In this document: in pieces, positions 20,179 to 32,955 of the stretch
How the letters are laid out: each line of letters begins with the position of its first letter
Position numbering within the stretch: the first letter of the stretch is position 1
NCBI RefSeq assembly: GCF_001898115.1
Contig: NZ_MKSQ01000011.1
Span: 1-64,000 of the forward strand
DNA length: 64,000 bases
Direction: 5' to 3'
Origin: Allobosea sp. 67-29
GTDB taxonomy: Bacteria; Pseudomonadota; Alphaproteobacteria; Rhizobiales; Beijerinckiaceae
The notes under the pieces: generated by a model
Databases searched by the model: none
Told to the model about the DNA's origin: nothing
The model's input: only the letters and a program-made list of their open reading frames with translations
Translations under genes and position numbers: made by a program

Positions 20179-21759
20179 CTAATATACATCCACCTGATAG
20201 CGTCCGGCCCTCCGCAGGGACGCGACATAGGCGATTGCGTCTTCGGCAGAGCGTCCGCCATGCTCCGCGACGACGTCGATGAGAGTGCGCTCGACATCCT
20301 TCGCCATGCGCTTGGCGTCGCCGCAGACGTAGAAATGCGCACCCATTTCAAGCCACGACCAGATTTCGCCGCCGCGTTCGCGCATGCGGTCCTGGACGTA
20401 GACCTTCTCGCCGTCGCGCGACCAGGCGAGCGTCAGGTTGGAGAGGAAGCCCGAATCCTTCATCGCCTGCAGCTCGTCCTCGTAGAAGAAATCGCAGGCC
20501 CGGCGCTGATGGCCGAAGAACAGCCAGTTGCGGCCCGGCGCCTTGGTCGCCTGCCGATCGTGCAGGAAGGCGCGGAAGGGCGCCACGCCCGTACCCGGAC
20601 CGCACATGATGATCGGAGTCGCCGGGTCGGGCGGCAGGGCGAAACCATGGGCGCGCTGGACATAAACGGGCACCTTGTCACCGGGAGCGACGCGCTCTGC
20701 TAGGAAGGTCGAGGCGACGCCCCAGCGCGGGCGCGAGCCGACCTTGTAGCGCACTGCATCGACCGTCAGGGTGATGCGGCGGGGTGTGGCGTGGTGCGAG
20801 GACGAGATCGAATAGAGCCGCGGCTGGAGCGGATCGAGCGCCTCGACGAAGGCCTCCGCCGAGAGGCGCGCCTGCGAGAACTTGTGCAGCGCGCCGAGCA
20901 CGTCGAGTCGGTCGAGATCGCCGTCGGGGTCGTCGCCCGCGGCAAGGCGCCGGGCTTTTGCACGCGCCTCGCCGCCGGTGACATAGGACATGAGCTGAAA
21001 CAGGGCGTCCGGCGCCGGGCCGAGCGCGCAGTCGGTCATCAGTTTTTCGCGCAACGGCTTGCCGGCGATCTCGGCATCCGGCCGCGCGCCCAGGAGCGCG
21101 ACCACGGCGTCGACGAGGCGCGGATCGTTCTGCGCGACGACGCCGAACGCATCGCCGACGATGTAGTCGAGGCCGCATTCCGAGAGATCGAACTCGACGT
21201 GCCAAGTCTCCTTTTCCGAGCCGGGGCCATTGAGCTTTCTGCGGGACAGGAAGGTGGCGAGCGCGGGATTCTCGCGGCAACGGCCCTTCGGAACCGGTTC
21301 CGCAGCTGGTGCGGCCCCGGCAGGAACGGCGGGGGCGGCGGCCCCGGGCTCCTCCATCAATGTCTTGATCTGGCGCAGCGTTTCCTTGCCGCCCGGCGCG
21401 CAGAGATTGAGCCGCCCTTCGGCGCCTGATGCGATGGCCGCGGAATAGGTCTCGCAGACATAGCCGCATTGCCCGCAATCCTGCTGGGCCATCGCCGCAT
21501 AGAGCCGGCGGGGCAGGGGCTTGCCTTCGGCCAGCGTCATGCGCTCGGCCATTTCGAGCGACGGGTCGTGCCAGGGCGCACCATCCTCGGCCTCGGTCAT
21601 GACCGCGGCGTTCTCGGTGGGCGACAGCGCCGTGACGCCGGCGTTGTCGAGCGAGAGCAGGCCGGCGAAGAATCCGTTGAGCCAGGAGCGCTGCTCGTCG
21701 CTGAAAGGAGCAGTCGCGGGGATGACCTGGACGATGGGGGCAGGCGTCTGGACGGTCAC
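20179..21759 (-). CDS. CysJ/CPR-like FAD-NADPH reductase with N-terminal 4Fe-4S domain (nitrite reductase electron donor)
   Basis: A 526-residue protein. The C-terminal ~380 residues form a sulfite-reductase-alpha/cytochrome-P450-reductase-type module: FAD motif RLYSISSS, then GVASTFL, NADPH motifs IIMCGPGTGVAPFRAFL and FFGHQRRACDFFYEDEL, and a terminal YVASLRRAGRYQVDVY. The usual flavodoxin (FMN) domain is absent. In its place residues 95-120 carry Cys95, Cys98, Cys102 and Cys120 in a CGQCGYVC...CAPGG pattern typical of the RnfB/acetyl-CoA synthase 4Fe-4S domain. Its start overlaps the nirA stop (ATGA), so it very likely passes NADPH electrons to the siroheme reductase. Last gene of the nitrate locus. 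Confidence 0.85.
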   Translation of the reverse strand: MTVQTPAPIVQVIPATAPFSDEQRSWLNGFFAGLLSLDNAGVTALSPTENAAVMTEAEDGAPWHDPSLEMAERMTLAEGKPLPRRLYAAMAQQDCGQCGYVCETYSAAIASGAEGRLNLCAPGGKETLRQIKTLMEEPGAAAPAVPAGAAPAAEPVPKGRCRENPALATFLSRRKLNGPGSEKETWHVEFDLSECGLDYIVGDAFGVVAQNDPRLVDAVVALLGARPDAEIAGKPLREKLMTDCALGPAPDALFQLMSYVTGGEARAKARRLAAGDDPDGDLDRLDVLGALHKFSQARLSAEAFVEALDPLQPRLYSISSSHHATPRRITLTVDAVRYKVGSRPRWGVASTFLAERVAPGDKVPVYVQRAHGFALPPDPATPIIMCGPGTGVAPFRAFLHDRQATKAPGRNWLFFGHQRRACDFFYEDELQAMKDSGFLSNLTLAWSRDGEKVYVQDRMRERGGEIWSWLEMGAHFYVCGDAKRMAKDVERTLIDVVAEHGGRSAEDAIAYVASLRRAGRYQVDVY

Positions 21760-23567
21760 GCTGCAGCCTCCGTCCTTGCGACCAGAACCGTCAGCGCCTC
21801 CATGTCGTGGCGCCGCGCGAAGGCGACGAAACTCTCGTCAGGGGTGGCCCGGTGCATCTGCCACGCATCCAGGATCGACTTGACGACGGCCGGCGCCTCC
21901 TCGGCCTTGATCTTCTCGCGAAAGGCCCGGGCGATGCCGCCATCGACGCCGTAACCGCCGCCGACATAGAGGTCGTACCCCTCGACCGTGTCGCCTTCTT
22001 CCCCCACCGGGACCCTGGCGCCGATCAGCCCGATATCGCCGATATAGTGCTGCGCGCAGGAGTTGTGGCAGCCGGTGAGATGGATGTTGACCGGCTGGTC
22101 CAGCACGATCTGCGGCTCGCAATGCGCGGCGATGGCGAGTGCGTCTTCCTTGGTGTGGGCGGCCGCGAACTTGCAGCCGGTGGCGCCGGTGCAGGCGATC
22201 AGCCCGGCCCGCAGCAGAGAGGCTTCGGCCGAAAGCCCGATGGCCTCGAGGTTGGCGAGCACATCATCGACGCTTGCATCCGGCACGCCAGAGATCAGCA
22301 GGTTCTGCCAGACGGTGAGGCGGATATCGCCGTCGCCACTGTGTCGGGCGATTGCGGCGATGACGCGCATCTGTGCCACGGTGAGCTTGCCGACCGGCAG
22401 CGCGACACCGATCCAGTTCAGCCCGGCCTGCGCCTGCGCGTGGACGCCGATATGGGCCAGGCGGTCATAGGCCGGACGCGGCGCGACGAACGTTGCTCCG
22501 ACCCGGACCAGCCTGCGGCCGAGCTTCTCCTCCACTGCGACTAGAAACCTGTCGAACCCCCAATCGTCCAGGACGTATTTCAGCCGGGCCTTGTTGCGGT
22601 CGCTGCGGTTGCCGTTCGCCGTAAAGACGCGGATGACGGCATCGGCTACCGCGACCGCGTCCGAGGGAGCCACGACGACGCCGGTGTCGCGCGCCAGATC
22701 CCTGTGGCCGGTGATGCCGCCGAGCGCGAGCCGATACCAGACGCCGGGACGGACCGGCTCGCCTTCGAAGCTCGCGCCTTCGACGACCTCGATCGCCTGG
22801 AAGCCGATGTCGTTGGTGTCCTCGAGCGTCGCGATCGAGCCGGCGCCGTCGAAGGCGACGTTGAACTTGCGCGGCAGCCCGTAGAGCGAGCGGTCGTTCA
22901 GGATGTGATGATGCCAGGCCCTGGCATGCGGCCTTGTATCCAGCAGTTCGCGCGGGTCGATCCCGGCGGTGGCCGAGCCGGTGACGTTACGGATGTTGTC
23001 GGCACCGGAGCCCTTCGCCGTCAGGCCGAGATCGCTCAGCGCTTCGATGAACGCAGGAGCGTTCTGCGCCTCGATTTCTCGGACCTGCAGGTTGGCCCGG
23101 GTGGTGACATGCGCATAGCCACCTCCGAGGTGCTCGGCGAGATCGGCGACGCCGGCGAACTGCCAGTGCGTCAGGATGCCGTTGGGAATGCGCAGCCGGC
23201 ACATGTAGCTGTTCTGCGCCGGCGCCACATAGAAAAGGCCCTGATAGCGCCAGCGGAAATTATCGTCCGGTTTGGGATAGGTGCCGCTTTCGGCCTGGGC
23301 CTTGAAGCGGGCATAGGCATCGAAGGGGTGCTCGGTCGCCTTCCACTTCTCCTGTTCGGCGAGCTTGCCGCCTTTTGCGATCGTCCTCGCCTGCGCCTCC
23401 CGATGCTCCTTGTCCGGCCCGGCCGGCACGGAGGCCGCGCTGCCGGGGCCCGAGCCGAGCGGCGCCAGCCCGCGCGCCGTGCGGGTGGACTGCATGCCGC
23501 TGACGAAGCCTTCGAGATAGCGCTTCTGGTCGGGCGTGAAATCGTCGCTCATGACCGGATCCGTCAC
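21756..23567 (-). CDS. nirA: Assimilatory nitrite reductase, siroheme/4Fe-4S (NirA-type)
   Basis: A 603-residue member of the nitrite/sulfite reductase family, which reduces nitrite to ammonium with six electrons. The 4Fe-4S/siroheme cysteines are Cys459, Cys465, Cys500 and Cys504 (CTGATGC ... TGCHNSC). The two ferredoxin-like half domains and the siroheme loop (HVTTRANLQVREI) are visible. An N-terminal extension (FTPDQKRYLEGFVSGMQS) resembles the N-terminus of the downstream reductase (FSDEQRSWLNGFFAGLLS), possibly a docking element. Its start overlaps the nrtC stop and its stop overlaps the flavoprotein start. Context makes nitrite rather than sulfite the substrate. Confidence 0.9.
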   Translation of the reverse strand: MTDPVMSDDFTPDQKRYLEGFVSGMQSTRTARGLAPLGSGPGSAASVPAGPDKEHREAQARTIAKGGKLAEQEKWKATEHPFDAYARFKAQAESGTYPKPDDNFRWRYQGLFYVAPAQNSYMCRLRIPNGILTHWQFAGVADLAEHLGGGYAHVTTRANLQVREIEAQNAPAFIEALSDLGLTAKGSGADNIRNVTGSATAGIDPRELLDTRPHARAWHHHILNDRSLYGLPRKFNVAFDGAGSIATLEDTNDIGFQAIEVVEGASFEGEPVRPGVWYRLALGGITGHRDLARDTGVVVAPSDAVAVADAVIRVFTANGNRSDRNKARLKYVLDDWGFDRFLVAVEEKLGRRLVRVGATFVAPRPAYDRLAHIGVHAQAQAGLNWIGVALPVGKLTVAQMRVIAAIARHSGDGDIRLTVWQNLLISGVPDASVDDVLANLEAIGLSAEASLLRAGLIACTGATGCKFAAAHTKEDALAIAAHCEPQIVLDQPVNIHLTGCHNSCAQHYIGDIGLIGARVPVGEEGDTVEGYDLYVGGGYGVDGGIARAFREKIKAEEAPAVVKSILDAWQMHRATPDESFVAFARRHDMEALTVLVARTEAAA

Positions 23568-24355
23568 GCCGCCTCGACGAAGCGATGGCGCTCGTAGAGG
23601 AATTTCAGCACCGCCTCGCGCGCGGCGATGTAGGTCCGGTCCGAGACCAGTTCGAGCCGCCGCCGCGGGCGGACGAGCTTGACGTCGAGCACCTCGCCGA
23701 TGCGGGCCGAAGGGCCGTTCGTCATCATCACGATCCGGTCGGAAAGCAGCACGGCTTCATCGACGTCGTGGGTGATCATGATCATGGTGTTGCCGAGTGC
23801 GGCGTGGATCTGCATCACGGAATCCTGCAGGTGGGCGCGGGTCAGCGCGTCGAGCGCGCCGAAGGGCTCGTCGAGCAGCAGGATCTTCGGCTCCATGGCG
23901 AGCCCGCGCGCGATGCCGACGCGCTGCTTCATGCCGCCGGAAATCTCGCCGGGTCGCCTGTCCTTCGCATGGGCCATCTGGACGAGGTCGAGATTGTGCA
24001 TGATCCAGTCATGCCGATCGGCCTTGCTCTTCCTGCCGCCGAAGACCTTGTTCACGGCGAGCGCGACATTGTCGTAGACCGTGAGCCACGGCAGCAGCGA
24101 GTGGTTCTGGAACACCACGGCGCGGTCCGGCCCGGGCGCGTTGACCTCCTTGCCTTCCAGCAGGATGCCGCCGGTCGTCGCAGGCGTCAGCCCCGCGACG
24201 ATGTTGAGCAGGGTCGACTTGCCGCAGCCGGAATGCCCGATGATCGAGACGAACTCGCCCTTGTCGATGACGAGGTTGATATCCTTGAGCACTTCGGTGG
24301 TGGCGGCGCCCCGCTGGAAGCGCTTGTCGACATGGTCGATCTTCAGATAGCTCAT
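23564..24355 (-). CDS. nrtC: Nitrate ABC transporter ATPase (NrtC/D-type)
   Basis: A 263-residue NitT/TauT-type ATPase with Walker A GHSGCGKST, Q-loop VFQNHSLLPWLTV, signature ISGGMKQR, Walker B ILLLDEP and switch region MITHDVDEAV. The start at 24355 (MSYLKIDHV) is chosen for its GAGGGG site. An in-frame start 42 bp upstream would overlap the permease stop and add an unconserved tail. It lacks the C-terminal NrtA-like domain of cyanobacterial NrtC and so is the short form. It pairs with NrtB 10 bp upstream. Confidence 0.92.
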   Translation of the reverse strand: MSYLKIDHVDKRFQRGAATTEVLKDINLVIDKGEFVSIIGHSGCGKSTLLNIVAGLTPATTGGILLEGKEVNAPGPDRAVVFQNHSLLPWLTVYDNVALAVNKVFGGRKSKADRHDWIMHNLDLVQMAHAKDRRPGEISGGMKQRVGIARGLAMEPKILLLDEPFGALDALTRAHLQDSVMQIHAALGNTMIMITHDVDEAVLLSDRIVMMTNGPSARIGEVLDVKLVRPRRRLELVSDRTYIAAREAVLKFLYERHRFVEAA

Positions 24356-24365
24356 CGCTTGCCCC

Positions 24366-25274
24366 TCAGTTGGTTGCGGTGCCGCGGGTGACGACATGGC
24401 CGATGAGGGCGACGAGGCGGTCGAGCAGGAAGCCGACCACGCCGATATAGACCAGCGCCACGATGATGTCGGAGAGGCGGGACGAGTTCCATGCGTCCCA
24501 GATGAAGAAGCCGATGCCGACGCCGCCGGTCAGCATCTCGGCGGCGACGATGGCGAGCCACGACAGCCCGACGCCGATCCGCAGGCCCGTGAAGATGTAA
24601 GGCGCCGCCGCCGGCACCATGATCCTGTAGAAGAACTCGATCTGGTTCAGACGCAGCACCTGCGCCACATTGCGATAGTCCTGCGGGATGTTGCGGATGC
24701 CGACGGCCGTATTGATGATCACCGGCCAGATCGCGGTGATGAAGATCACGAAGATCGCCGAGGGCTGGCTGTCGCGGAAGGCGGCGAGCGAGAGCGGCAG
24801 CCAGGCCAGCGGCGGCACGGTGCGCAACACCTGGAAAATCGGGTCGAGCCCGCGCATCGCCCAGACCGACTGGCCGACCAGCACGCCGAGCAGGATGCCG
24901 ACGACCGCCGCGAGGCTGAAGCCGATGGCGACCCGCTGCAGCGAGACGAGAATGCGCCAGCCCAGCCCGATATCCTGCGAGCCCGCCCAGTAGAACGGTT
25001 GGACGATCAGATCCTTCGCCTCTTCCCAAATCTTCGTCGGAGGCGGCAGTGAGGATTGCGGTCCATGCGCGGCGAGCTGCCAGAACAGCAGGATCAGCGC
25101 GACCGTGATCAGCGGCGGCAGCAGGTTGGCGAGAGCGCCTCTTGCCAAGGGAGCGAGCTTTGCCAGGAAGGGCTTGGCAGGCCCCACCGGCAACGGCACG
25201 ACCTCGGACGGTTTGCCCGGGAGCGCGACGACCGCGGCGCCCGCACCCGCATCTTTCAAGACAGGCTGACCCAT
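24366..25274 (-). CDS. nrtB: Nitrate ABC transporter permease (NrtB)
   Basis: A 302-residue permease of the NrtB/SsuC/TauC family with about six membrane helices. The ABC loop is complete (YRNVAQVLRLNQIEFFYRIMVPAAAPYIFTGLRIGVGLSWLAIVAAEML, the diagnostic LSWLxIVxAEM of nitrate permeases). The N-terminal ~60 residues are hydrophilic. It lies between nasA and nrtC, away from its binding protein nrtA, which is three genes upstream. Confidence 0.92.
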   Translation of the reverse strand: MGQPVLKDAGAGAAVVALPGKPSEVVPLPVGPAKPFLAKLAPLARGALANLLPPLITVALILLFWQLAAHGPQSSLPPPTKIWEEAKDLIVQPFYWAGSQDIGLGWRILVSLQRVAIGFSLAAVVGILLGVLVGQSVWAMRGLDPIFQVLRTVPPLAWLPLSLAAFRDSQPSAIFVIFITAIWPVIINTAVGIRNIPQDYRNVAQVLRLNQIEFFYRIMVPAAAPYIFTGLRIGVGLSWLAIVAAEMLTGGVGIGFFIWDAWNSSRLSDIIVALVYIGVVGFLLDRLVALIGHVVTRGTATN

Positions 25275-25314
25275 GTTTCAGTCTCTCCTTTGACCGAGCG
25301 TTCGGTTGCGTTCG

Positions 25315-27996
25315 TCATGCCGTCTCGCGCGCCTGCGCACCGATGCGGCGGATTTCAGGGAGGCAGGAGCCGCAATTGGTCCCCGCCTTGAGTTGAACGC
25401 CGATCTCCTCGGCCGTCGCCGCGCCTGCCTCGAAGGCGGTGCGGATCGCGTTCAGCCCCACCCCGAAGCAGGCACAGACGGTCGGGCCGGGCGCCGGTCC
25501 CCCGGGCTGACGTCCAGAGAGGAGGGAGAGCCGGCGTTCCACGATCGACGCCGGATCGGCGAAGACGGTCTTGACGGTGTCCCAGAGAGGCGCGTGGCCC
25601 GCCCGTGCGAGGAAGAGCGTGGCGACGAGCCGCCCCGCCCGGAACACGGCGCAGCGATAATGGCCGCCTTCATGGTCGACCAGCTCGGTCAGTTCGTCCG
25701 TGCCGAAGCGTTCGCGCACCAGCGCCGCGAGCGCATCGACGGCGGCGTCGGTCGCGAAAAGCCGGCCTTCGCCGCCCTGCACCGCAAGCCGCGACCACCA
25801 GCCTCCCGACGGCAGGTCGAAGGGGCCGCGTGACAGGACAAAGCCTTCGAAACGATAGGCCACTGCTGCAATGGAGACCGGTGTCGCCTTCAATTCGGGC
25901 TGCCCTGAGAAGGGGTCGCAGCACGGCTGCGCGAGGGCGCCGATACGGGCATCGGAGGCCGTCTCGCCGGACCAGTGGATCGGCGCGAATACGGTCCCCT
26001 CGGTTACGCCGGTGTCTGCTGCCACCCTCAGCACCGCGCTGCCGTAAGCGCTGGCGAGCCGGGCGAACCCACCCTCGGCCAGCCCGAAGCGAGCGATCTC
26101 GGCCGGATGGACGTGCACCGAGGGCTCGGCGGCATGGACGCTGAGCCGGGGGCTGAGGCCGGTCCGGGTCATGCTGTGCCAGTGGTCTCGAACCCGCCCG
26201 GTGTTCAGCAGCAGCGGGAAAATCTCGCTCACCGGCGAGGCGAGCTTGGGTCCGGCGAGCAGGCTCATCCGTGCGCGGCGCTCCGGACCGAAGAACGAGC
26301 CGTCCCCGAAGAGCCGCGCGGTGCCATGCGGCCGATCGGCCGGCGCGGGCCATTGCACCGGCTTGAGCGCATCATAGGCGGCTCTTGTAAGGTCGGCGTG
26401 GGCGCCGATGTCGAAATCGCGCGTTCCCTCGTTCTCGAAGGCCGAGAGAGCGGCGTGCTCGGCATGGATCTCGTACGGGCCGGCATGGGCGAAGCTCTTC
26501 CCGAAGCCGAGACGCTTGGCGACCTCGCAGATGATCCACCAGTCCGGCCTTGCTTCGCCGGGGAGGGGCAGGAAGGGGCGCTGGCGCGAGATCCGGCGTT
26601 CGGAATTGGTGACGGTCCCGTCCTTCTCGCCCCAGGCAGCGGCCGGCAGGATGTAGTGAGGCCCGGCCGCGAGCGTGTCGTTCGAGAGCACGTTCTCCGA
26701 GACGATGAAGAGGTCGAGGCCGGCGAGCGTGTCGCGTACCTTGTCCGCATCCGGCAGGGAGACAGCAGGATTCGTCGCCATCACCCACATCGCGCGGATG
26801 CGGCGTCGGGCGACCGCTTCCAGCATCTGGACGGCCTTCAGACCTTCGTCGCGTGCCATGTTCGGCGCGTTCCAGAAGCGGCGGACGCGGTCGATCTCCT
26901 CGGCGCCATAGCCCATATGGGCGGCGAGCATATTGGCGAGCCCGCCGACTTCGCGCCCACCCATGGCGTTCGGCTGCCCGGTGAGCGAAAACGGTCCGCA
27001 GCCGGCGCGCCCGATCCGCCCCGTCGCGAGGTGGCAGTTCAGGATCGCGGCCACCTTGTCCGTGCCCTGCGCCGACTGGTTGACGCCCTGGCTCCAGGCC
27101 GTGACCACGCGCGGCGTGCTCGCCCAGAGCTCGTAGAAGGCCGCGATCCGGTCGGCCGGAACACCGGTTGCAAGGGATACCGAGGCCAACGCGGGCGCGA
27201 TTGCGCGCGCATTGGCCAGCGCCTCCTCGAGACCCGTCACATGACACGTTACATAGCCCCGGTCGACGAGGCCACGATCGCAGAGGTGAACGAGCAGTCC
27301 GGCGAAGAGCACGGCGTCGGAGCCGGGCTTCAGCGTCAGCACCATGTCGGCTTCTTCCGCCGTCGCGGTCAGGCGTGGGTCGAGGACGACGAGGCGCGCG
27401 CCACGTTCGCGCCGGTTGTCCTGCATCCGCCGGAACAGGATCGGGTGGCACCAGGCCGTGTTCGAGCCGACCAGGACGATCAGGTCGGCGCTGTCGAAAT
27501 CCTCATACGCGCCGGGCACGGTGTCCGAGCCGAAGACCCGCCGCTGCGCCGCGACCGTCGAGGACATGCAGAGCCGCGAATTGGTGTCGACATGCGGCGT
27601 GCCGATGAAGCCCTTCGCCAGCTTGTTGGCGACGTAGTAGTCCTCCGTCAGAAGCTGGCCCGATAGATAAAAGGCGACCGCCTCCGGGCCGTGCTCGGCG
27701 GCGATGGTCCGCAAACCTGTGGCGACGGCGCCGAGAGCTTCGTCCCAGCCGATCCTGTCGTAGCCGCCGGCGATGTTGCGCTTCAGCGGATGCAGCACCC
27801 GCCCGCCGAGCCCCAGCGTCTCGCCGAGCGCCGAGCCCTTCGAGCAGAGCCGTCCGCGATTGGCCGGGTGCTCCGGATCGCCGGCGATCGCGGCGCCGCC
27901 CAGCGCGTCGGGCGTGGCCACTACGCCGCAGCCGACACCGCAATAGGGGCAGGTCGTACGCACCGCCGCCGGGGCAAGGGGAGCGTCGTGGCGCAT
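25315..27996 (-). CDS. nasA: Assimilatory nitrate reductase, molybdopterin catalytic subunit (NasA) with C-terminal BFD-like 2Fe-2S domain
   Basis: An 893-residue bis-MGD enzyme reducing nitrate to nitrite in the cytoplasm. The N-terminal 4Fe-4S ligands are Cys16, Cys19, Cys23 and Cys51. Molybdopterin-binding segments follow, including NSRLCMSS (with the Mo-ligand-type Cys), GSNTAWCHPI, WSQGVNQSAQGTDK and MWVMATNPAVSLPDA. The last ~60 residues (CACFGVGLNAIRTAFEAGAA...CGSCLPEI) form a BFD-like 2Fe-2S domain that receives electrons. The ATG at 27996 overlaps the preceding stop (ATGA) and is preferred to an in-frame ATG at 28017. No signal peptide, as expected for an assimilatory enzyme. Confidence 0.93.
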   Translation of the reverse strand: MRHDAPLAPAAVRTTCPYCGVGCGVVATPDALGGAAIAGDPEHPANRGRLCSKGSALGETLGLGGRVLHPLKRNIAGGYDRIGWDEALGAVATGLRTIAAEHGPEAVAFYLSGQLLTEDYYVANKLAKGFIGTPHVDTNSRLCMSSTVAAQRRVFGSDTVPGAYEDFDSADLIVLVGSNTAWCHPILFRRMQDNRRERGARLVVLDPRLTATAEEADMVLTLKPGSDAVLFAGLLVHLCDRGLVDRGYVTCHVTGLEEALANARAIAPALASVSLATGVPADRIAAFYELWASTPRVVTAWSQGVNQSAQGTDKVAAILNCHLATGRIGRAGCGPFSLTGQPNAMGGREVGGLANMLAAHMGYGAEEIDRVRRFWNAPNMARDEGLKAVQMLEAVARRRIRAMWVMATNPAVSLPDADKVRDTLAGLDLFIVSENVLSNDTLAAGPHYILPAAAWGEKDGTVTNSERRISRQRPFLPLPGEARPDWWIICEVAKRLGFGKSFAHAGPYEIHAEHAALSAFENEGTRDFDIGAHADLTRAAYDALKPVQWPAPADRPHGTARLFGDGSFFGPERRARMSLLAGPKLASPVSEIFPLLLNTGRVRDHWHSMTRTGLSPRLSVHAAEPSVHVHPAEIARFGLAEGGFARLASAYGSAVLRVAADTGVTEGTVFAPIHWSGETASDARIGALAQPCCDPFSGQPELKATPVSIAAVAYRFEGFVLSRGPFDLPSGGWWSRLAVQGGEGRLFATDAAVDALAALVRERFGTDELTELVDHEGGHYRCAVFRAGRLVATLFLARAGHAPLWDTVKTVFADPASIVERRLSLLSGRQPGGPAPGPTVCACFGVGLNAIRTAFEAGAATAEEIGVQLKAGTNCGSCLPEIRRIGAQARETA

Positions 27997-29210
27997 CAGG
28001 CGGCCGCCTCGATGCAATGGCTTTCGCCGAAAGGCAGGTCGGCGCGGATCGCGCCGACATCCTGGCCCGAGCGGATCAACCCCAGATAGAACAGGGCGCC
28101 GTGCGTATCGCCGACCAGCACGCAGCCGGCGAGCCGCCCGCCGCGTAGCACGAACTTGCGGTAGACGCCCGCGGCGGGATCGCGCAGCACGACCGTCTCG
28201 GCGCCGTCCCCCGCCTCGAACTCGCCGGCCGAGAACACGCCGACCCCGGAGACCTTGAGATTGGTCGAGAGCAGCGACCCCAGATAGGCGCCGTCGCGCC
28301 CGGCAAGGCGGGCGGCGAGCACCCGCGCCTGCTCATAGGCCGGCTCGACCAGCCCGTAGGCCAGTCCGCGATGCTCGGCGCACTCACCGATGGCGAAGAT
28401 CGCGGGGTCGCTGGTGGCGAGGCCGTCATCGACCAGGATGCCGCGTCCGACGCCAAGTCCGGCCGCTTGCGCGATCTCGATATTCGGGCGCACGCCGATG
28501 GCGATGACCACCAGATCGGCGGGAATCTCGGTGCCGTCCGTGAGTTCGACGGCCTCGACATGGTCCCGGCCACGGAAGCCTTTCGTCTCGGCACGGAGGC
28601 GCACGTCGACGCCGCGCGCCGCCATCGCCGCGGCGAGCAGGCCCGCGCCCTCGCGGTCGAGCTGGCGCTCCATCAGGCGGTCGACGAGATGCAACAGCGT
28701 CACCTCCGCCCCGGCACGGGCAAGGCCATGGGCGGCCTCCAGCCCGAGCAGGCCGCCCCCGATGACGGCGACACGGGCGCCGCGCGCCGCATAGGACCGC
28801 ATCATTCCGACATCGGCCGTATCGCGAAACGTCACGACACCCCTGAGCGCGCCGCCGGGGAAGGGCGGACGCAGCGGCGTCGAGCCGGTCGCGAGCACGA
28901 GCTTGCCGTAGGGCAGGTTCGACCCGCCGCGAAGCGTCACCACCCGGGCCGCCCGGTCGATGCGCTCGACGGAGCGGCCGTAGAAGGTGGATATGCCGCG
29001 ATCGCGCCACCAGGCCGGGGGCTTGAGGTCGATGTCGTTCTCGCCGATCTCCCCGGCCAGCAGAGGCGAGAGCAGCACCCGGTTATAGGCCGGTCGGGGT
29101 TCGTCCCCGATCACCGCGACGGAATAGCGGCCGAGCGCGCGCTGGCTGAGCTCCTCAGCCAGCCGGGTCGCGGCCATGCCGTTGCCGACGATGATCAGGG
29201 GTTCGGCCAT
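27996..29210 (-). CDS. FAD/NAD(P)-dependent oxidoreductase (NirB N-terminal/NasC-like), nitrate reductase electron donor
   Basis: A 404-residue pyridine-nucleotide-disulfide-type flavoprotein with FAD-binding IIVGNGMAATRLAEEL, NAD-binding VAVIGGGLLGLEAAHGLARAG and the second FAD motif IFAIGECAEH. It resembles the N-terminal half of NirB and the NasC/NasB small subunits that transfer NAD(P)H electrons to NasA. The upstream reading frame continues into the nrtA region without homology, so the start is ATG 29210 (MAEPLIIVG), 2 bp after the nrtA stop. Its stop overlaps the nasA start. Together they make a two-component nitrate reductase. Confidence 0.88.
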   Translation of the reverse strand: MAEPLIIVGNGMAATRLAEELSQRALGRYSVAVIGDEPRPAYNRVLLSPLLAGEIGENDIDLKPPAWWRDRGISTFYGRSVERIDRAARVVTLRGGSNLPYGKLVLATGSTPLRPPFPGGALRGVVTFRDTADVGMMRSYAARGARVAVIGGGLLGLEAAHGLARAGAEVTLLHLVDRLMERQLDREGAGLLAAAMAARGVDVRLRAETKGFRGRDHVEAVELTDGTEIPADLVVIAIGVRPNIEIAQAAGLGVGRGILVDDGLATSDPAIFAIGECAEHRGLAYGLVEPAYEQARVLAARLAGRDGAYLGSLLSTNLKVSGVGVFSAGEFEAGDGAETVVLRDPAAGVYRKFVLRGGRLAGCVLVGDTHGALFYLGLIRSGQDVGAIRADLPFGESHCIEAAA

Positions 29211-29212
29211 GG

Positions 29213-30541
29213 TCAGGCGATCCGCTTGATCTTCAGCGCGTTGAGGTAGTCCATCGGCGCCGCCGGATCGAATTTGACACCGTCGAAGAAGGTTTCGACG
29301 CCGCGGGAATCCGAGCTCGGCGTGCCCGCGATGCCGAGCGTCTTCGCGGCTTCCAGCCAGAGATCGGAGCGGTTGACCTTGTCGACGAGCGCCTTGACGT
29401 TGGTGTTCGCCTCGAACTTGCCCCAGCGGATGTTTTCGGTCACGAACCAGGTGTCGAGGCTCTTCCAGGGGTAGGAGACCGAGCCGCCTTCGCCCCAGAA
29501 CTTCATCAGCAGGTTCGTCCCCTTGGCGACCTTGCCGCGCCCGTAATTGATGTCGCCCTTGATGCGGCCGATGATGTCCGGAACGGGAACGTTGAACCAC
29601 TGGCGACGGCCGATGATCTCGGCCATCTCCTGCTTGTTCTCCATCTTCTCGCACCAGATCTGGGCTTCCATCGTCGCCATCATGATCGCCATCGCGGCCT
29701 TGGGATTCTGGTCGACGAAGTCGGCGCGCATGCCGAGCACCTTCTCGGGATGCTTGAACCAGATCTCGCCGGTGGTCGCGGCCGTGAAGCCGATGTTCTG
29801 GTTGACGAGCTGCTCGTTCCACGGCTCGCCGACGCAGAAGCAGTCCATGGTGCCGACCTTCATGTTCGCCACCATCTGCGGCGGCGGCACGACGATGGTC
29901 GAGACGTCCTTGTCGGGGTCGATGCCGCCGGCGGCGAGCCAGTAGCGCAGCCAGAGATCGTGCGTGCCGCCGGGGAAGGTCATCGCCGCCTTCACCTCCT
30001 TGCCCGCTGCCTTCTTCTTCTCGAAGGCCTCTTTCAGTGCCGAGCAATCGGTGCCGACCGGCAGATCCTTGTATTCGTTGGAGACCGAGAGGCCCTGGCA
30101 GTCCTCGTTCAGCCGCAGCAGCGTGTACATCGGGAGCGGCTGCCCGTTCTGCATGACCTTGCCGGTGCTGTAGAGATAGGGCTTTGGCGAGAGAATATGG
30201 CCGCCGTCGATGCCGTTGGCCTTGAAGCCGAGCGCCATGTTGTCCCGCGTCGCACCCCAGGAGGCCTGCTTGGCGATGTCCATGTCGGGCAGGCCGTATT
30301 TGGCGTATATGCCCTTTTCCTTGGCGATGATCAGAGGCGCGGCGTCGGTCAGCGCGATATAGCCGAGGCGCGTGCCCTTCACCTCCGGCCCGGAGCCCTG
30401 CGCGAACGCGCCGGAGGGCAGGGCGGATTTCGCCGCCGCGAGCAAGGCGGCGGTGCCGGACAGCCGGAGAAAGTGCCGGCGGCTGGTGCCGGGCTTCCGG
30501 GATGCGGCCGCCCTGGTTCCGGTCTTGAAGCTATGCGTCAT
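29213..30541 (-). CDS. nrtA: Nitrate-binding periplasmic protein (NrtA)
   Basis: A 442-residue NitT/TauT-type binding protein. The N-terminus carries a Tat signal (SRRHFLRLSG, then an alanine-rich h-region ending GAFAQG), so it is exported folded. Core landmarks are RLGYIALTDAAPLIIAKEKG, AKQASWGATRDNMALG, MTFPGGTHDLWLRYWLAAGGIDPDKDVSTIVVPPPQMV and CVGEPWNEQLV, as in NrtA/NasF. It is the first gene after the regulatory leader and so heads the structural operon. A GAGAGG site precedes the ATG. Confidence 0.93.
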   Translation of the reverse strand: MTHSFKTGTRAAASRKPGTSRRHFLRLSGTAALLAAAKSALPSGAFAQGSGPEVKGTRLGYIALTDAAPLIIAKEKGIYAKYGLPDMDIAKQASWGATRDNMALGFKANGIDGGHILSPKPYLYSTGKVMQNGQPLPMYTLLRLNEDCQGLSVSNEYKDLPVGTDCSALKEAFEKKKAAGKEVKAAMTFPGGTHDLWLRYWLAAGGIDPDKDVSTIVVPPPQMVANMKVGTMDCFCVGEPWNEQLVNQNIGFTAATTGEIWFKHPEKVLGMRADFVDQNPKAAMAIMMATMEAQIWCEKMENKQEMAEIIGRRQWFNVPVPDIIGRIKGDINYGRGKVAKGTNLLMKFWGEGGSVSYPWKSLDTWFVTENIRWGKFEANTNVKALVDKVNRSDLWLEAAKTLGIAGTPSSDSRGVETFFDGVKFDPAAPMDYLNALKIKRIA

Positions 30542-30607
30542 CGATCGCCTCTCGGTTGCTGGAAAGCTGCCTGCGTAGATCGGGCCGAAATGCAGAAAAC
30601 GCCGCGC

Positions 30608-30627
30608 GAAAGACGCCCGGGCGGGCG
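30608..30627 (-). terminator. Leader terminator upstream of nrtA (NasT-controlled)
   Basis: On the minus strand CGCCC-GCCC-GGGCG forms a short GC-rich hairpin (30627-30614) followed by TCTTTC. It lies downstream of the two hexaloop hairpins and 67 bp before the nrtA start, the expected position of the terminator in ANTAR-regulated leaders. Confidence 0.6.
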
Positions 30628-30634
30628 CATTCCG

Positions 30635-30688
30635 ACAGCGACGTTGCTGTGTCTTCCGGATTGGGGAGCGCGGGCAGCATTGGCCGCG
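30635..30688 (-). promoter_or_regulatory. ANTAR-type RNA antiterminator element (two hexaloop hairpins) in the nrtA leader
   Basis: Reading the minus strand, hairpin 1 (30688-30669) has stem CGCGGCC/GCCCGCG with one C-C mismatch and loop AAUGCU. Hairpin 2 (30650-30635) has stem ACAGC/GCUGU and loop AACGUC. Both are six-nucleotide loops with A at position 1 and G at position 4, the known recognition feature for ANTAR proteins such as NasT. The linker is 18 nt and a terminator follows. NasT, freed from NasS by nitrate, would bind here and let transcription proceed into nrtA. Confidence 0.72.
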
Positions 30689-30702
30689 TCGCAGCAGGTG
30701 TT

Positions 30703-30717
30703 ACAAGGATCGTGCCA
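30703..30717 (-). promoter_or_regulatory. Sigma54 (RpoN) promoter of the nitrate operon
   Basis: TGGCACG-ATCC-TTGT on the minus strand matches the sigma54 consensus TGGCACG-N4-TTGC at all but one fixed base. The transcript would begin near 30692, just 5' of the first hexaloop hairpin. Upstream, a 10-bp inverted repeat (ATCGCAACAA 30746-30755, TTGTTGCGAT 30797-30806) and an NtrC-like half-palindrome (TGCATC-N5-AATGCG, 30809-30793) are candidate enhancer sites. This implies joint control by nitrogen status and nitrate. Confidence 0.75.
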
Positions 30718-30839
30718 ACCGTGAGAGCCAACCGGCTGCTTTGGAATCGCAACAACTTGAATTGGGGATGACACCGGTTCGGCCTGGGCGACCGCATTGT
30801 TGCGATGCAAAATGGAGATGCATCTGCCTTCTTTTTAGG

Positions 30840-31901
30840 CTAGCGCCCCTCGGCGGCCGAAATGCCCTCGAAAGATGCAGGCAGGAAGACGCCTCGCGCG
30901 ATCTCGCGGATCTCCGAAGTCACTGCGATCTGCCCGGCGCGCTGCATGCCTGACAGAACCCAGTCGGCGTCGTCGGGCTCGGGCCGCAGCGCCTCGCGAT
31001 CGAAGCGCACGAAGGGCGCGATCCGGCGGGCCGGCCGGCCGGCACCTTGAATAAGATCGCCCTGCAGGATGCGCTCGATCAGCGCCGTCGGCAGCGCCAG
31101 CCGGTCCGGCGCCGAAAGATGCTGCGCCATGCGCGCGAAATTCTCCGGTCGGCAAGCCCAGGCGCTGGCCTTGAGGATCGCGACGCCGAGTTTCGTGACC
31201 GCCGCCGGACGGCGCAGCACGTCGTCGGCACGCCAGGCAAGAATCTTGTCGTGGCAGCCGCGCCTGAGATCGACGCCCGCATGCACCATGGCGCCGACGC
31301 CGGCCGCGACCGCGGCAGAGTTCCAGGGCGCACCGGCGCAGAAGCCGTCGATCCGCCCGCCGGCGAGCGCCTCGGCGGTCTGCGGCGGCGGAACGACCTC
31401 GCAGCGGACGTCTTCGCCCAGGACCAGCCCGCTCTTTGCGAGCCATTCCCCCAGCAGGTAGATGTGGGTCGAAAAACCGAACACGGCCGCGAAGGTCAGC
31501 GCCGGCAGGCCGGAGGCCCTGCGACGGGCGACCATCGCGGCGAGCGCGCGGGCCGAGACGGCGGTGTCGGACAAGTCGCCCTCCGCCAGGCGTGACAGCT
31601 CCTCGAAGCAGGGCAGCGACAGTGTGATCGCGGCCCCGTCGCGATTAAGGGCCAGCGGCGCCGCCATCGGCGCCCGGACGCCGCCGATGCCCAGCGTCGC
31701 GGCGATGGCTGCCGGTCCGAGCATATGGGCGGCATCGAACAGGCGCACGTTCAGCTTGTCGCGCAGGTTCGACCAGGAGACTTCGCGCACCAGCTCGAGA
31801 TTGAGGCCTTCCGCTTCGGCGAAGCCTTCGTCCTTCGCCAGCACGAGCAGCGCGCAATCGACCAGCGGCATGAAGCCGACCCGCAGGTGCAGCGTCGTCA
31901 T
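30840..31901 (-). CDS. nasS: NasS-type cytoplasmic nitrate sensor (NrtA-like, no signal peptide)
   Basis: A 353-residue protein of the nitrate-binding NrtA/NasF fold. It starts directly in the mature domain (MTTLHLRVGFMPLVDCALLVLAKDEGF) with no export signal, the mark of NasS. Motifs VSWSNLRDKLNVRLFDAAHMLGP, CEVVPPPQTAEALAGGRIDGFCAGAPWN and ILAWRADDVLRRPAAVTKL are present. NasS binds NasT and releases it when nitrate is bound. Its ATG overlaps the nasT stop (ATGA at 31898-31901). Confidence 0.9.
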   Translation of the reverse strand: MTTLHLRVGFMPLVDCALLVLAKDEGFAEAEGLNLELVREVSWSNLRDKLNVRLFDAAHMLGPAAIAATLGIGGVRAPMAAPLALNRDGAAITLSLPCFEELSRLAEGDLSDTAVSARALAAMVARRRASGLPALTFAAVFGFSTHIYLLGEWLAKSGLVLGEDVRCEVVPPPQTAEALAGGRIDGFCAGAPWNSAAVAAGVGAMVHAGVDLRRGCHDKILAWRADDVLRRPAAVTKLGVAILKASAWACRPENFARMAQHLSAPDRLALPTALIERILQGDLIQGAGRPARRIAPFVRFDREALRPEPDDADWVLSGMQRAGQIAVTSEIREIARGVFLPASFEGISAAEGR

Positions 31902-32482
31902 TTCAGCATCTCCGCGGCGGTGATGAGGGAGCGGGCGATGTCGACGAGCTTGCGCTTCTCGTTCATCGCGGTGCGGCGCATCAGGGCGTAGGCCTCGTCT
32001 TCGGAGAGACCCTTCAGGCGCATGACGATGCGCTTGGCCTGATCGATCGTTCGGCGGTCCTCGAGCTGCGAGCGCGCCTCGTCCAACTCCTCGCGCAGCC
32101 TGCGGAAGGCATTGAAGCGGCTGATGCAGGTTTGCAGGATCGGCTGCATCCGCTCCTTCTTGAGTCCGTCGACGATATAGGCGGAGACGCCGGCCTCGAC
32201 CGCCGCCTCGATCGAGGCCGAGTCCGACTGGTCGACGAACATGGTGATGGGGCGGCGGATATGCCGGCTCACGAGGAACATGTCGGCGAGCGCATCGCGG
32301 CTGGGATCCTCGAGATCGATCACCACGACATCCGGGTCATGGGTTTCGATGGCGGCGACCAGACCCGTCGTCGCCGTCATGCGGACGAGCTGATCGTATC
32401 CCGCTTCCCGCAGGCCTTCCTCGATGATCGCGGCCCGGACTTGGTTGGCGTCCACGATGAGGATCCGCAGGTTGGGCTGCAT
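31898..32482 (-). CDS. nasT: NasT-type ANTAR response-regulator-like antiterminator
   Basis: A 194-residue protein with an N-terminal receiver-like domain (ILIVDANQVRAAIIEEGL ... VVVIDLEDPSRDALADM) and a C-terminal ANTAR RNA-binding domain (RTIDQAKRIVMRLKGLSEDEAYALMRRTAMNEKRKLVDIARSLI). The usual receiver acidic pocket is degenerate (VDAN), as in other NasT. The start at 32482 (MQPNLRIL) is preferred; an in-frame ATG 36 bp upstream adds an unconserved arginine-rich stretch. It binds the two-hexaloop leader at 30635-30688. Confidence 0.9.
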   Translation of the reverse strand: MQPNLRILIVDANQVRAAIIEEGLREAGYDQLVRMTATTGLVAAIETHDPDVVVIDLEDPSRDALADMFLVSRHIRRPITMFVDQSDSASIEAAVEAGVSAYIVDGLKKERMQPILQTCISRFNAFRRLREELDEARSQLEDRRTIDQAKRIVMRLKGLSEDEAYALMRRTAMNEKRKLVDIARSLITAAEMLK

Positions 32483-32522
32483 GCCTTTCGATCGTTCCCT
32501 TGTCGTGATCCGCATCACTCAA

Positions 32523-32537
32523 TCAGGAATCGTGCCA
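32523..32537 (-). promoter_or_regulatory. Sigma54-like promoter upstream of nasT
   Basis: TGGCACG-ATTC-CTGA on the minus strand keeps the -24 TGGCACG and the -12 TG, but has CTGA where TTGC is usual. It would start transcription near 32511, about 30 bp before the nasT ATG. It lies at the junction with the IS3 remnant. Weaker than the nrtA promoter, so tentative. Confidence 0.4.
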
Positions 32538-32955
32538 CCGCTACTCTCTGGAGGGCGAGGCCTGGCGGCTCCCGATCGCGATGGACACCGCCTTTCGCAT
32601 CGAAGCCGTCGAGGACGCCATGGCCCGCTTCGGCGAGCCGGAGAGCTTCAATACGCGCCAGCGCTCGCAGTTCACCAGCCGCGAGTTCACCGCCTTGCTG
32701 ATCGCAGTCGACATCAGGATCAGCATGGACGGGAACGGCGCCTGGCGCGACGACGTGTTCGTCGAGCGCCTCTGGAAATCGGTCAAATGCGAGGAGCTCT
32801 GTCCCGCGGGCCTATGCCAGCGTGTCGGAGGCCCGTGCCTCGATCGGCCGGCATCTCGAGTTCTCCACCGCACGAAGGCCTCATCGGGGCCTGGGATGGC
32901 TGACGCCCGACCAGGCTTCCTTCAACGCGCTGCCGCCAATCCGGCGGCGGCATAG
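32529..32955 (+). mobile_element. IS3-family OrfB transposase remnant
   Basis: The plus strand encodes the C-terminal third of an IS3-family transposase: MDTAFRIEAVEDAMARFG, SQFTSREFTALL, ISMDGNGAWRDDVFVERLWKSVK. After a one-base frameshift near 32806 it continues as AYASVSEARASIGRHLEF, then RPHRGLGWLTPDQASFNALPP. The catalytic Asp of the usual NTDQGSQ is Arg here (NTRQRSQ), so the enzyme is dead by substitution as well as by truncation. OrfA and the left end are missing. A possible right inverted repeat lies near 32990-33015. Confidence 0.85.

Follow-up and report, generated by a model that had tools for sequence, protein, structure and literature searches.

The 298-nt gap between nasS and nrtA in Allobosea sp. 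67-29 raises the question of whether one noncoding region can make a set of nitrate assimilation genes answer to two signals at once. An earlier note on this DNA proposed that it can, by placing a sigma54 promoter ahead of a two-hexaloop RNA read by NasT. We followed up this proposal in the window (the whole stretch of DNA analyzed, 64,000 nt long) and in related genomes. The core idea is supported in outline, with corrections to the extent of the terminator, the enhancer sites, and the letters of the -12 element. In all likelihood, the gap puts nitrate assimilation under a two-condition switch, in which an NtrC/sigma54-dependent start is combined with NasT antitermination. Such a control region would probably confine expression of the nitrate-use genes to conditions of nitrogen scarcity in which nitrate is available.

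In this 4.86-Mb genome, the locus runs nasT-nasS-gap-nrtA on the minus strand. The first gene after the leader encodes an NrtA-like substrate-binding protein (29213 to 30541; PF13379 NMT1_2, 340.7 bits), and by eye its ATG is preceded by GAGAGG at 30548 to 30553. It is followed by the presumed controlled genes (21756 to 29210), identified by Pfam and assigned to the operon by adjacency, in the order FAD/NAD reductase, molybdopterin nitrate-reductase-like protein with a BFD-like iron-sulfur domain, ABC permease, ABC ATPase, and nitrite/sulfite-reductase-like protein. On the other side of the gap lies the presumed nitrate/nitrite sensor partner (30840 to 31901; PF13379, 193 bits), named nasS because of its position and the Paracoccus system. 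Beyond it, nasT (31898 to 32518) encodes a response-regulator-like domain (PF00072, 33.6 bits) and an ANTAR domain (PF03861, 64.2 bits); its true start is more likely the ATG at 32482. All four of these features are on the minus strand. The nasT gene, next to the leader, is the only ANTAR match in the genome, which also holds one match to sigma54 (PF04552) and one NtrC protein above the curated cutoff. Among the genomes of the same genus (here called the Bosea group), 10 of the 36 searched have no ANTAR match. Just upstream of nasT, an integrase-core (rve) transposase remnant occupies 32581 to 32952 on the plus strand (24.1 bits, below the Pfam cutoff), and this insertion may have displaced the upstream sites of nasT in this strain. 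Between the remnant and nasT lies a sigma54-like motif, TGGCACGATTCCTGATT (32521 to 32537, minus strand), and a similar motif occurs 47 to 57 bp before the nasT start, as set in that scan, in 10 of 29 Bosea relatives.

For this genome, we infer the binding events, the start site, and the responses to nitrate and nitrogen as follows. When nitrogen runs short, phosphorylated NtrC on upstream sites would help sigma54 RNA polymerase start near 30692, and the new RNA would fold by default into a terminator (30596 to 30645) ahead of nrtA. Once nitrate or nitrite is detected, NasS would release NasT, which would bind both A1/G4 hexaloops and hold the second hairpin (P2), keeping its loop and 3' arm from the terminator. 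With the terminator prevented, the nrtA operon could be read.

The RNA elements of this scheme can be located precisely. Hairpin P1, CGCGGCC-AAUGCU-GCCCGCG, spans 30669 to 30688 on the minus strand (loop, 30676 to 30681) and has a stem of five pairs, an internal C.C mismatch that had previously gone unmentioned, and one closing pair. Hairpin P2, ACAGC-AACGUC-GCUGU, spans 30635 to 30650 on the same strand, with a 5-bp stem and its loop at 30640 to 30645. Both six-base loops carry A at position 1 and G at position 4, as the earlier note had read them, and these letters are kept throughout the 31 aligned Bosea leaders. Alignment with related leaders had been proposed as a check, and it bore the hairpins out: the P1-P2 linker varies, whereas both stems are invariant letter for letter. 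In loop 1, A1, A2, G4, and U6 are invariant while positions 3 and 5 vary; in loop 2, variation is confined to position 5. Thirty distinct leaders, read from the nasS stop, remained after removal of duplicates, and the P1-P2 alignment comprises 31 with the inclusion of L024. The P1-linker-P2 pattern was present in all 43 Bosea-group nasS loci (L010 to L052, with several genomes represented twice) and lacking in L008, a same-genus ANTAR locus with nasS not in reach.

Folding energy contributes little to this picture. Neither hairpin is unusually stable by itself (z of -1.21 for P1 and -1.40 for P2), nor is the whole 98-nt leader (z of -0.83, with 44 of 200 shuffles as stable). Furthermore, the isolated RNA favors other folds: P1 and P2 as drawn reach -14.2 kcal/mol, compared with -17.7 for the best fold up to P2 and -20.2 with P1-P2 cross-pairing. 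The case for the hairpins rests on conservation and register, not energy.

The register concerns the terminator that follows. The predicted intrinsic terminator, AACGUCGC...GCGGCGUUUU, spans 30596 to 30645 on the minus strand; AACGUCGC (from 30645) pairs with GCGGCGUU (to 30598), then U. Its 3' arm, GCGGCGTT, lies at 30598 to 30605 and its T run at 30596 to 30599. The stretch from 30595 to 30646 folds at -28.6 kcal/mol (z of -3.13), and 1 of 200 shuffles was as stable. A simple terminator scan, with a rule that needs a loop of 3 to 8 nt and five T in eight, gave none in 30500 to 30900. A terminator had previously been placed at 30608 to 30627; a terminator-like fold does lie before nrtA, but that span is its inner stem only, and we reject the inner stem as the whole terminator in favor of the fuller fold at 30596 to 30645. 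The 5' arm of this fold was computed to consist of loop 2 and the 3' arm of P2. Therefore, P2 and the terminator are mutually exclusive, and this exclusion would be the switch.

The same register is found in relatives. Loop 2 begins exactly at the 5' end of the terminator in 28 of the 29 Bosea leaders with a terminator by our rule; in L035, the one outlier, the terminator call is misplaced and hairpin 2 is intact. At offset +11, a three-pair stem appears in 11 Bosea leaders, never with A1/G4. The outer eight pairs of the terminator are 99.6% kept in 28 Bosea leaders; the only changes are C-G to U-G and G-C to G-U, and none of these leaders has a double change in the outer stem. Promoter, hairpins, and terminator beside nasT-nasS had been read as parts of one leader RNA, and their joint occurrence in Bosea agrees, with the promoter motif in 30 of 30 leaders, the hairpins in 43 of 43 loci, and the terminator overlap in 28 of 29.

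Across the order as a whole, 134 of the 297 genomes, counting this one, encode a NasT-like protein. We fetched 60 loci from different genera, 59 of which gave usable leaders (L119 was too short). In 59 of the 60, the position after nasT is taken by nasS or by a gene whose product matches the nrtA query better; in L095, such a match starts farther off. Thirty-eight of the 59 leaders, versus 16 of 1,180 shuffles, have an A1/G4 hexaloop hairpin whose loop or 3' arm doubles as the 5' arm of a T-run terminator, leaving 21 leaders with no match in this joint search. For a register test, terminators were located first, blind to hairpins, and were found in 37 of the 59 leaders; the other 22 had none by our rule. 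A six-base loop on a stem of at least three pairs begins at the first base of the terminator in 29 of the 37, and 25 of these loops are A1/G4. At offset -3, a hexaloop stem occurs in 7 of the 37; the two offsets together account for 34, both being occupied in 2, and L102, L105, and L108 have a hexaloop stem at neither. At any other offset from -14 to +14, such stems appear in at most 4 of the 37. When Bosea and the other genera are taken together, A1/G4 stands at offset 0 or -3 in 63 of the 66 leaders with a terminator, being absent in L088, L102, and L110. An upstream P1-like hexaloop hairpin is also present in 29 of the 37 other-genus leaders versus 78 of 1,850 shuffles.

The spread across genera also allowed covariation to be assessed. 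A lack of covariation in the two stems had been named as evidence against the leader, and the outcome depends on the depth of comparison. Inside Bosea, the P1 and P2 stems show no variation and hence no covariation; such invariance carries no information on covariation either way, and it is strong evidence of constraint. Across the order, P2 shows compensatory changes. For P2, 63 rows (Bosea and other genera, without L088, L102, and L110, which lack A1/G4) gave 39 distinct 18-mers, and 37 after dropping L035 (terminator misplaced) and L105 (gapped). Against shuffles that do not preserve relatedness, three of five measures stood above expectation: 13 cells were changed on both sides (shuffle mean, 3.4), 87.2% of cells paired (79.4% shuffled), and the covariation score was 0.287 (0.156 shuffled), with 0 of 500 shuffles reaching the observed value in each case. 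Two measures did not rise above shuffles, namely how many pairs carried a double change (reached by 63 of 500 shuffles) and how many pair types were seen (361 of 500); in addition, 18 of the 37 sequences leave the outermost counted pair unpaired. Since P1 stems across genera were picked for pairing, we draw no covariation from them.

Upstream of the hairpins lies a sigma54-type -24/-12 promoter, TGGCACG-ATCC-TTG followed by TA (30704 to 30717, minus strand). TGGCACG-N4-TTG has one match in the 64 kb, where the shuffle mean is 0.09 and 8 of 100 shuffles have at least one. The sigma54 consensus has GG at -24, a set spacing to -12, and GC at -12. The GG and the spacing are found in all 30 distinct Bosea leaders, in which TGGCA(C/T)-N5-TTG is kept. 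The base following TTG is T in 25 and A in 5 leaders and never C, so that the GC at -12 is absent in 30 of 30 (GT in 25, GA in 5). Consequently, we call this promoter sigma54-type by form rather than a member of the consensus; the near-consensus promoter previously proposed is present as a motif, but its -12 element reads TTGT, not TTGC. Counting 12 nt after the -12 G places the estimated start at about 30692 (minus strand), 4 nt before hairpin 1, in agreement with the start formerly predicted right before that hairpin. Hairpin 1 lies 16 nt from the -12 G in 27 of the 30 Bosea leaders, 17 nt in two, and 15 nt in one. The glnK-amtB promoter of the same genome (a P-II gene beside the ammonium transporter) reads TTGGCACG-TCCC-TTGAAT, with GA at -12, and its -24/-12 form (TTGGCACG-N4-TTGA) is common to the promoter in the nasS-nrtA gap. 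The other P-II locus of the genome (L065) has no match to the promoter pattern.

Candidate NtrC sites were scored with the motif quoted in the Paracoccus work (PMC5424462). Site A, AGCCTAAAAAGAAGGCA (30825 to 30841, minus strand), overlaps the nasS stop codon and, read on its reverse strand, agrees with the motif at 9 of 11 positions, a score also reached by 8 of 50 shuffles of that upstream stretch. Site B, TGCATCTCCATTTTGCA (30806 to 30822, minus strand), lies 19 bp after site A, with 8 of 11 positions and TGC-N11-GCA spacing. Upstream of glnK-amtB, TGCCCGAAAAGAAGGCA, identical to site A in 14 of 17 letters, is followed 19 bp on by GGCCTTTATTTTAGGCA, by eye the same tandem offset as sites A and B. 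The motif scores in Bosea leaders are weak, with a mean of 8.53 versus 8.05 for shuffles, and a score of 9 is reached in 13 of 30 leaders versus 22% of shuffles. In 16 of the 30 leaders, the best match falls 121 to 126 bp upstream of the promoter, a count inflated by relatedness; position, rather than score, is what stands out. An NtrC-like site previously marked at 30793 to 30809 reaches 8 of 11 on the better-matching strand, equal to site B but below site A. The inverted repeat of 30746 to 30755 with 30797 to 30806, which the earlier note had listed as a candidate enhancer, is exact here, but an exact 10-bp inverted repeat upstream of the promoter exists in 1 of 30 Bosea leaders, the one in the window itself, and we reject this repeat as an enhancer. 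Separately, an element like TTGCAATTCAA (about 30745 to 30757 in the window, minus strand), some 30 bp upstream of the -24 box, is seen repeatedly in the aligned Bosea leaders, 26 of 30 having it by an ad hoc pattern; it is possibly a site for an IHF-type or other factor.

The alternative with most room concerns initiation rather than the RNA. The leader could be a NasT antiterminator whose promoter does not depend on NtrC and sigma54, or it could be transcribed by read-through from nasTS. The missing canonical GC at -12, the weak motif scores of the NtrC sites, and the sigma54-like motif of nasT itself, with its counterparts in 10 of 29 relatives, speak for it. We nevertheless regard this alternative as unlikely, given that TGGCA(C/T)-N5-TTG is retained in all 30 leaders with hardly any change in its spacing to hairpin 1, that the promoter form is shared with glnK-amtB of the same genome, and that a search of 30500 to 30900 found no sigma70-type promoter.

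It is considerably less probable that the hairpins serve as an ordinary attenuator, or within an RNA stability element, with no part played by NasT. The leader does fold into the terminator by default, and its binding by NasT is a prediction. However, invariant stems with A1/G4 loops stand beside nasT, the terminator register is exact across genera, and a P1-like hairpin lies upstream in 29 of 37 leaders, all of which speaks against this view. Chance fold-backs in GC-rich DNA would agree with single-sequence z scores that are unremarkable for each hairpin and for the leader as a whole, yet stems that stay invariant in 31 leaders while their linker varies, and above all the joint search (38 of 59 leaders, 16 of 1,180 shuffles), strongly disfavor this last reading and reduce it to a negligible prospect. 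A two-condition switch with a NasT-read leader is the reading we retain.

Searches for further copies of the RNA suggest how specific this switch may be. No Rfam family reached its gathering cutoff in the window, and the best subthreshold matches in the region were unrelated. A covariance model of P1-P2 run on the own genome scored the window locus at 1.3e-13 and the next candidate at 0.07, among the best 150 of 9,458 candidates scored; an earlier model, with the hairpin 2 brackets one column off, gave 8.5e-11 and 0.23, again among the best 150 of 9,458. The genome has one strong predicted NasT target among the best 150 of 9,458 candidates, with room for a further weak one. The single ANTAR gene and the single strong RNA match within that best 150 suggest a dedicated pair. 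When 297 genomes of the order, the present genome among them, were scanned, the off-by-one model with strict filters matched the window locus alone. This result is no sign that the RNA is absent from relatives, because hand inspection showed diverged forms there. A seven-column match with the 12-base core AGCAACGNCGCT was uninformative in the genome (4 versus 9 for the control). In the literature, no description of a NasT leader in Bosea appeared among the matches listed.

The antitermination mechanism is already known from Klebsiella, Paracoccus, and Bradyrhizobium, and the leader described here is an ordinary, finely conserved example of it. In Paracoccus denitrificans, as here, nasT-nasS lies directly upstream and hairpins occupy the noncoding gap before the structural operon (PMC3795266, PMC5424462). 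There, NasT binds the nasA leader and NasS-NasT release has been shown (PMC3795266), hairpin HI is required for growth on nitrate (PMC5424462), and nitrate assimilation also needs NtrBC (PMC3795266, PMC5424462). The NtrC site identified in Paracoccus is before nasT, a site in the nasA leader having been left unidentified by the authors, whereas in the present locus it is the nasS-nrtA gap that contains the NtrC-like sites and a sigma54-type promoter; furthermore, the first gene is nasA in Paracoccus and nrtA (ABC import) here. The Klebsiella nasF/NasR system likewise joins general nitrogen control to nitrate-released antitermination through an A1/G4 hexaloop RNA, but its sensor and RNA-binding parts are in one NIT-ANTAR protein, while here they are divided between NasS and NasT (PMC3369931, PMC5424462). 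The A1/G4 rule and the overlap of P2 with the terminator are described in PMC3369931 and PMC8164766. The EutV RNAs of Enterococcus share P1/P2 hexaloops with A1 and G4 and a P2 that overlaps the terminator, and they differ in their ethanolamine signal, two-component kinase, and genes (PMC3369931). Bradyrhizobium diazoefficiens has the same gene order, and there NasT prevents the terminator of the nosR leader; NasT hairpins are also predicted at nirA and others, giving several targets, in contrast to the one strong target found here among the best 150 of 9,458 candidates (PMC6759348).

The locus offers a clean, densely sampled case of a two-condition genetic switch in Hyphomicrobiales, and the register test, in which hexaloop start coincides with terminator start, can find NasT targets where sequence models fail. 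Points of specialist note are the long Bosea linker, the frozen and mismatched P1, and the order-wide register rule. The loop-to-loop distance is 36 to 40 nt in 28 Bosea leaders; in other genera, it is 18 to 28 nt in 23 of 29 leaders and 40 to 60 nt in six. We tentatively suggest, as a less probable extension of the main reading, that the Bosea leader is a long-linker NasT RNA with a frozen, mismatched P1, that NasT may read its loops in a different geometry, and that an as yet uncurated RNA family may be made up of nasTS leaders across the order. The natural variation in linker length and loop letters is material for testing how an ANTAR protein reads two loops. Apparent exceptions to the A1 rule, with G at position 1 of the hairpin 2 loop, occur in L088 (GAAGCC), L105 (GACGCC), and L110 (GATGCC).
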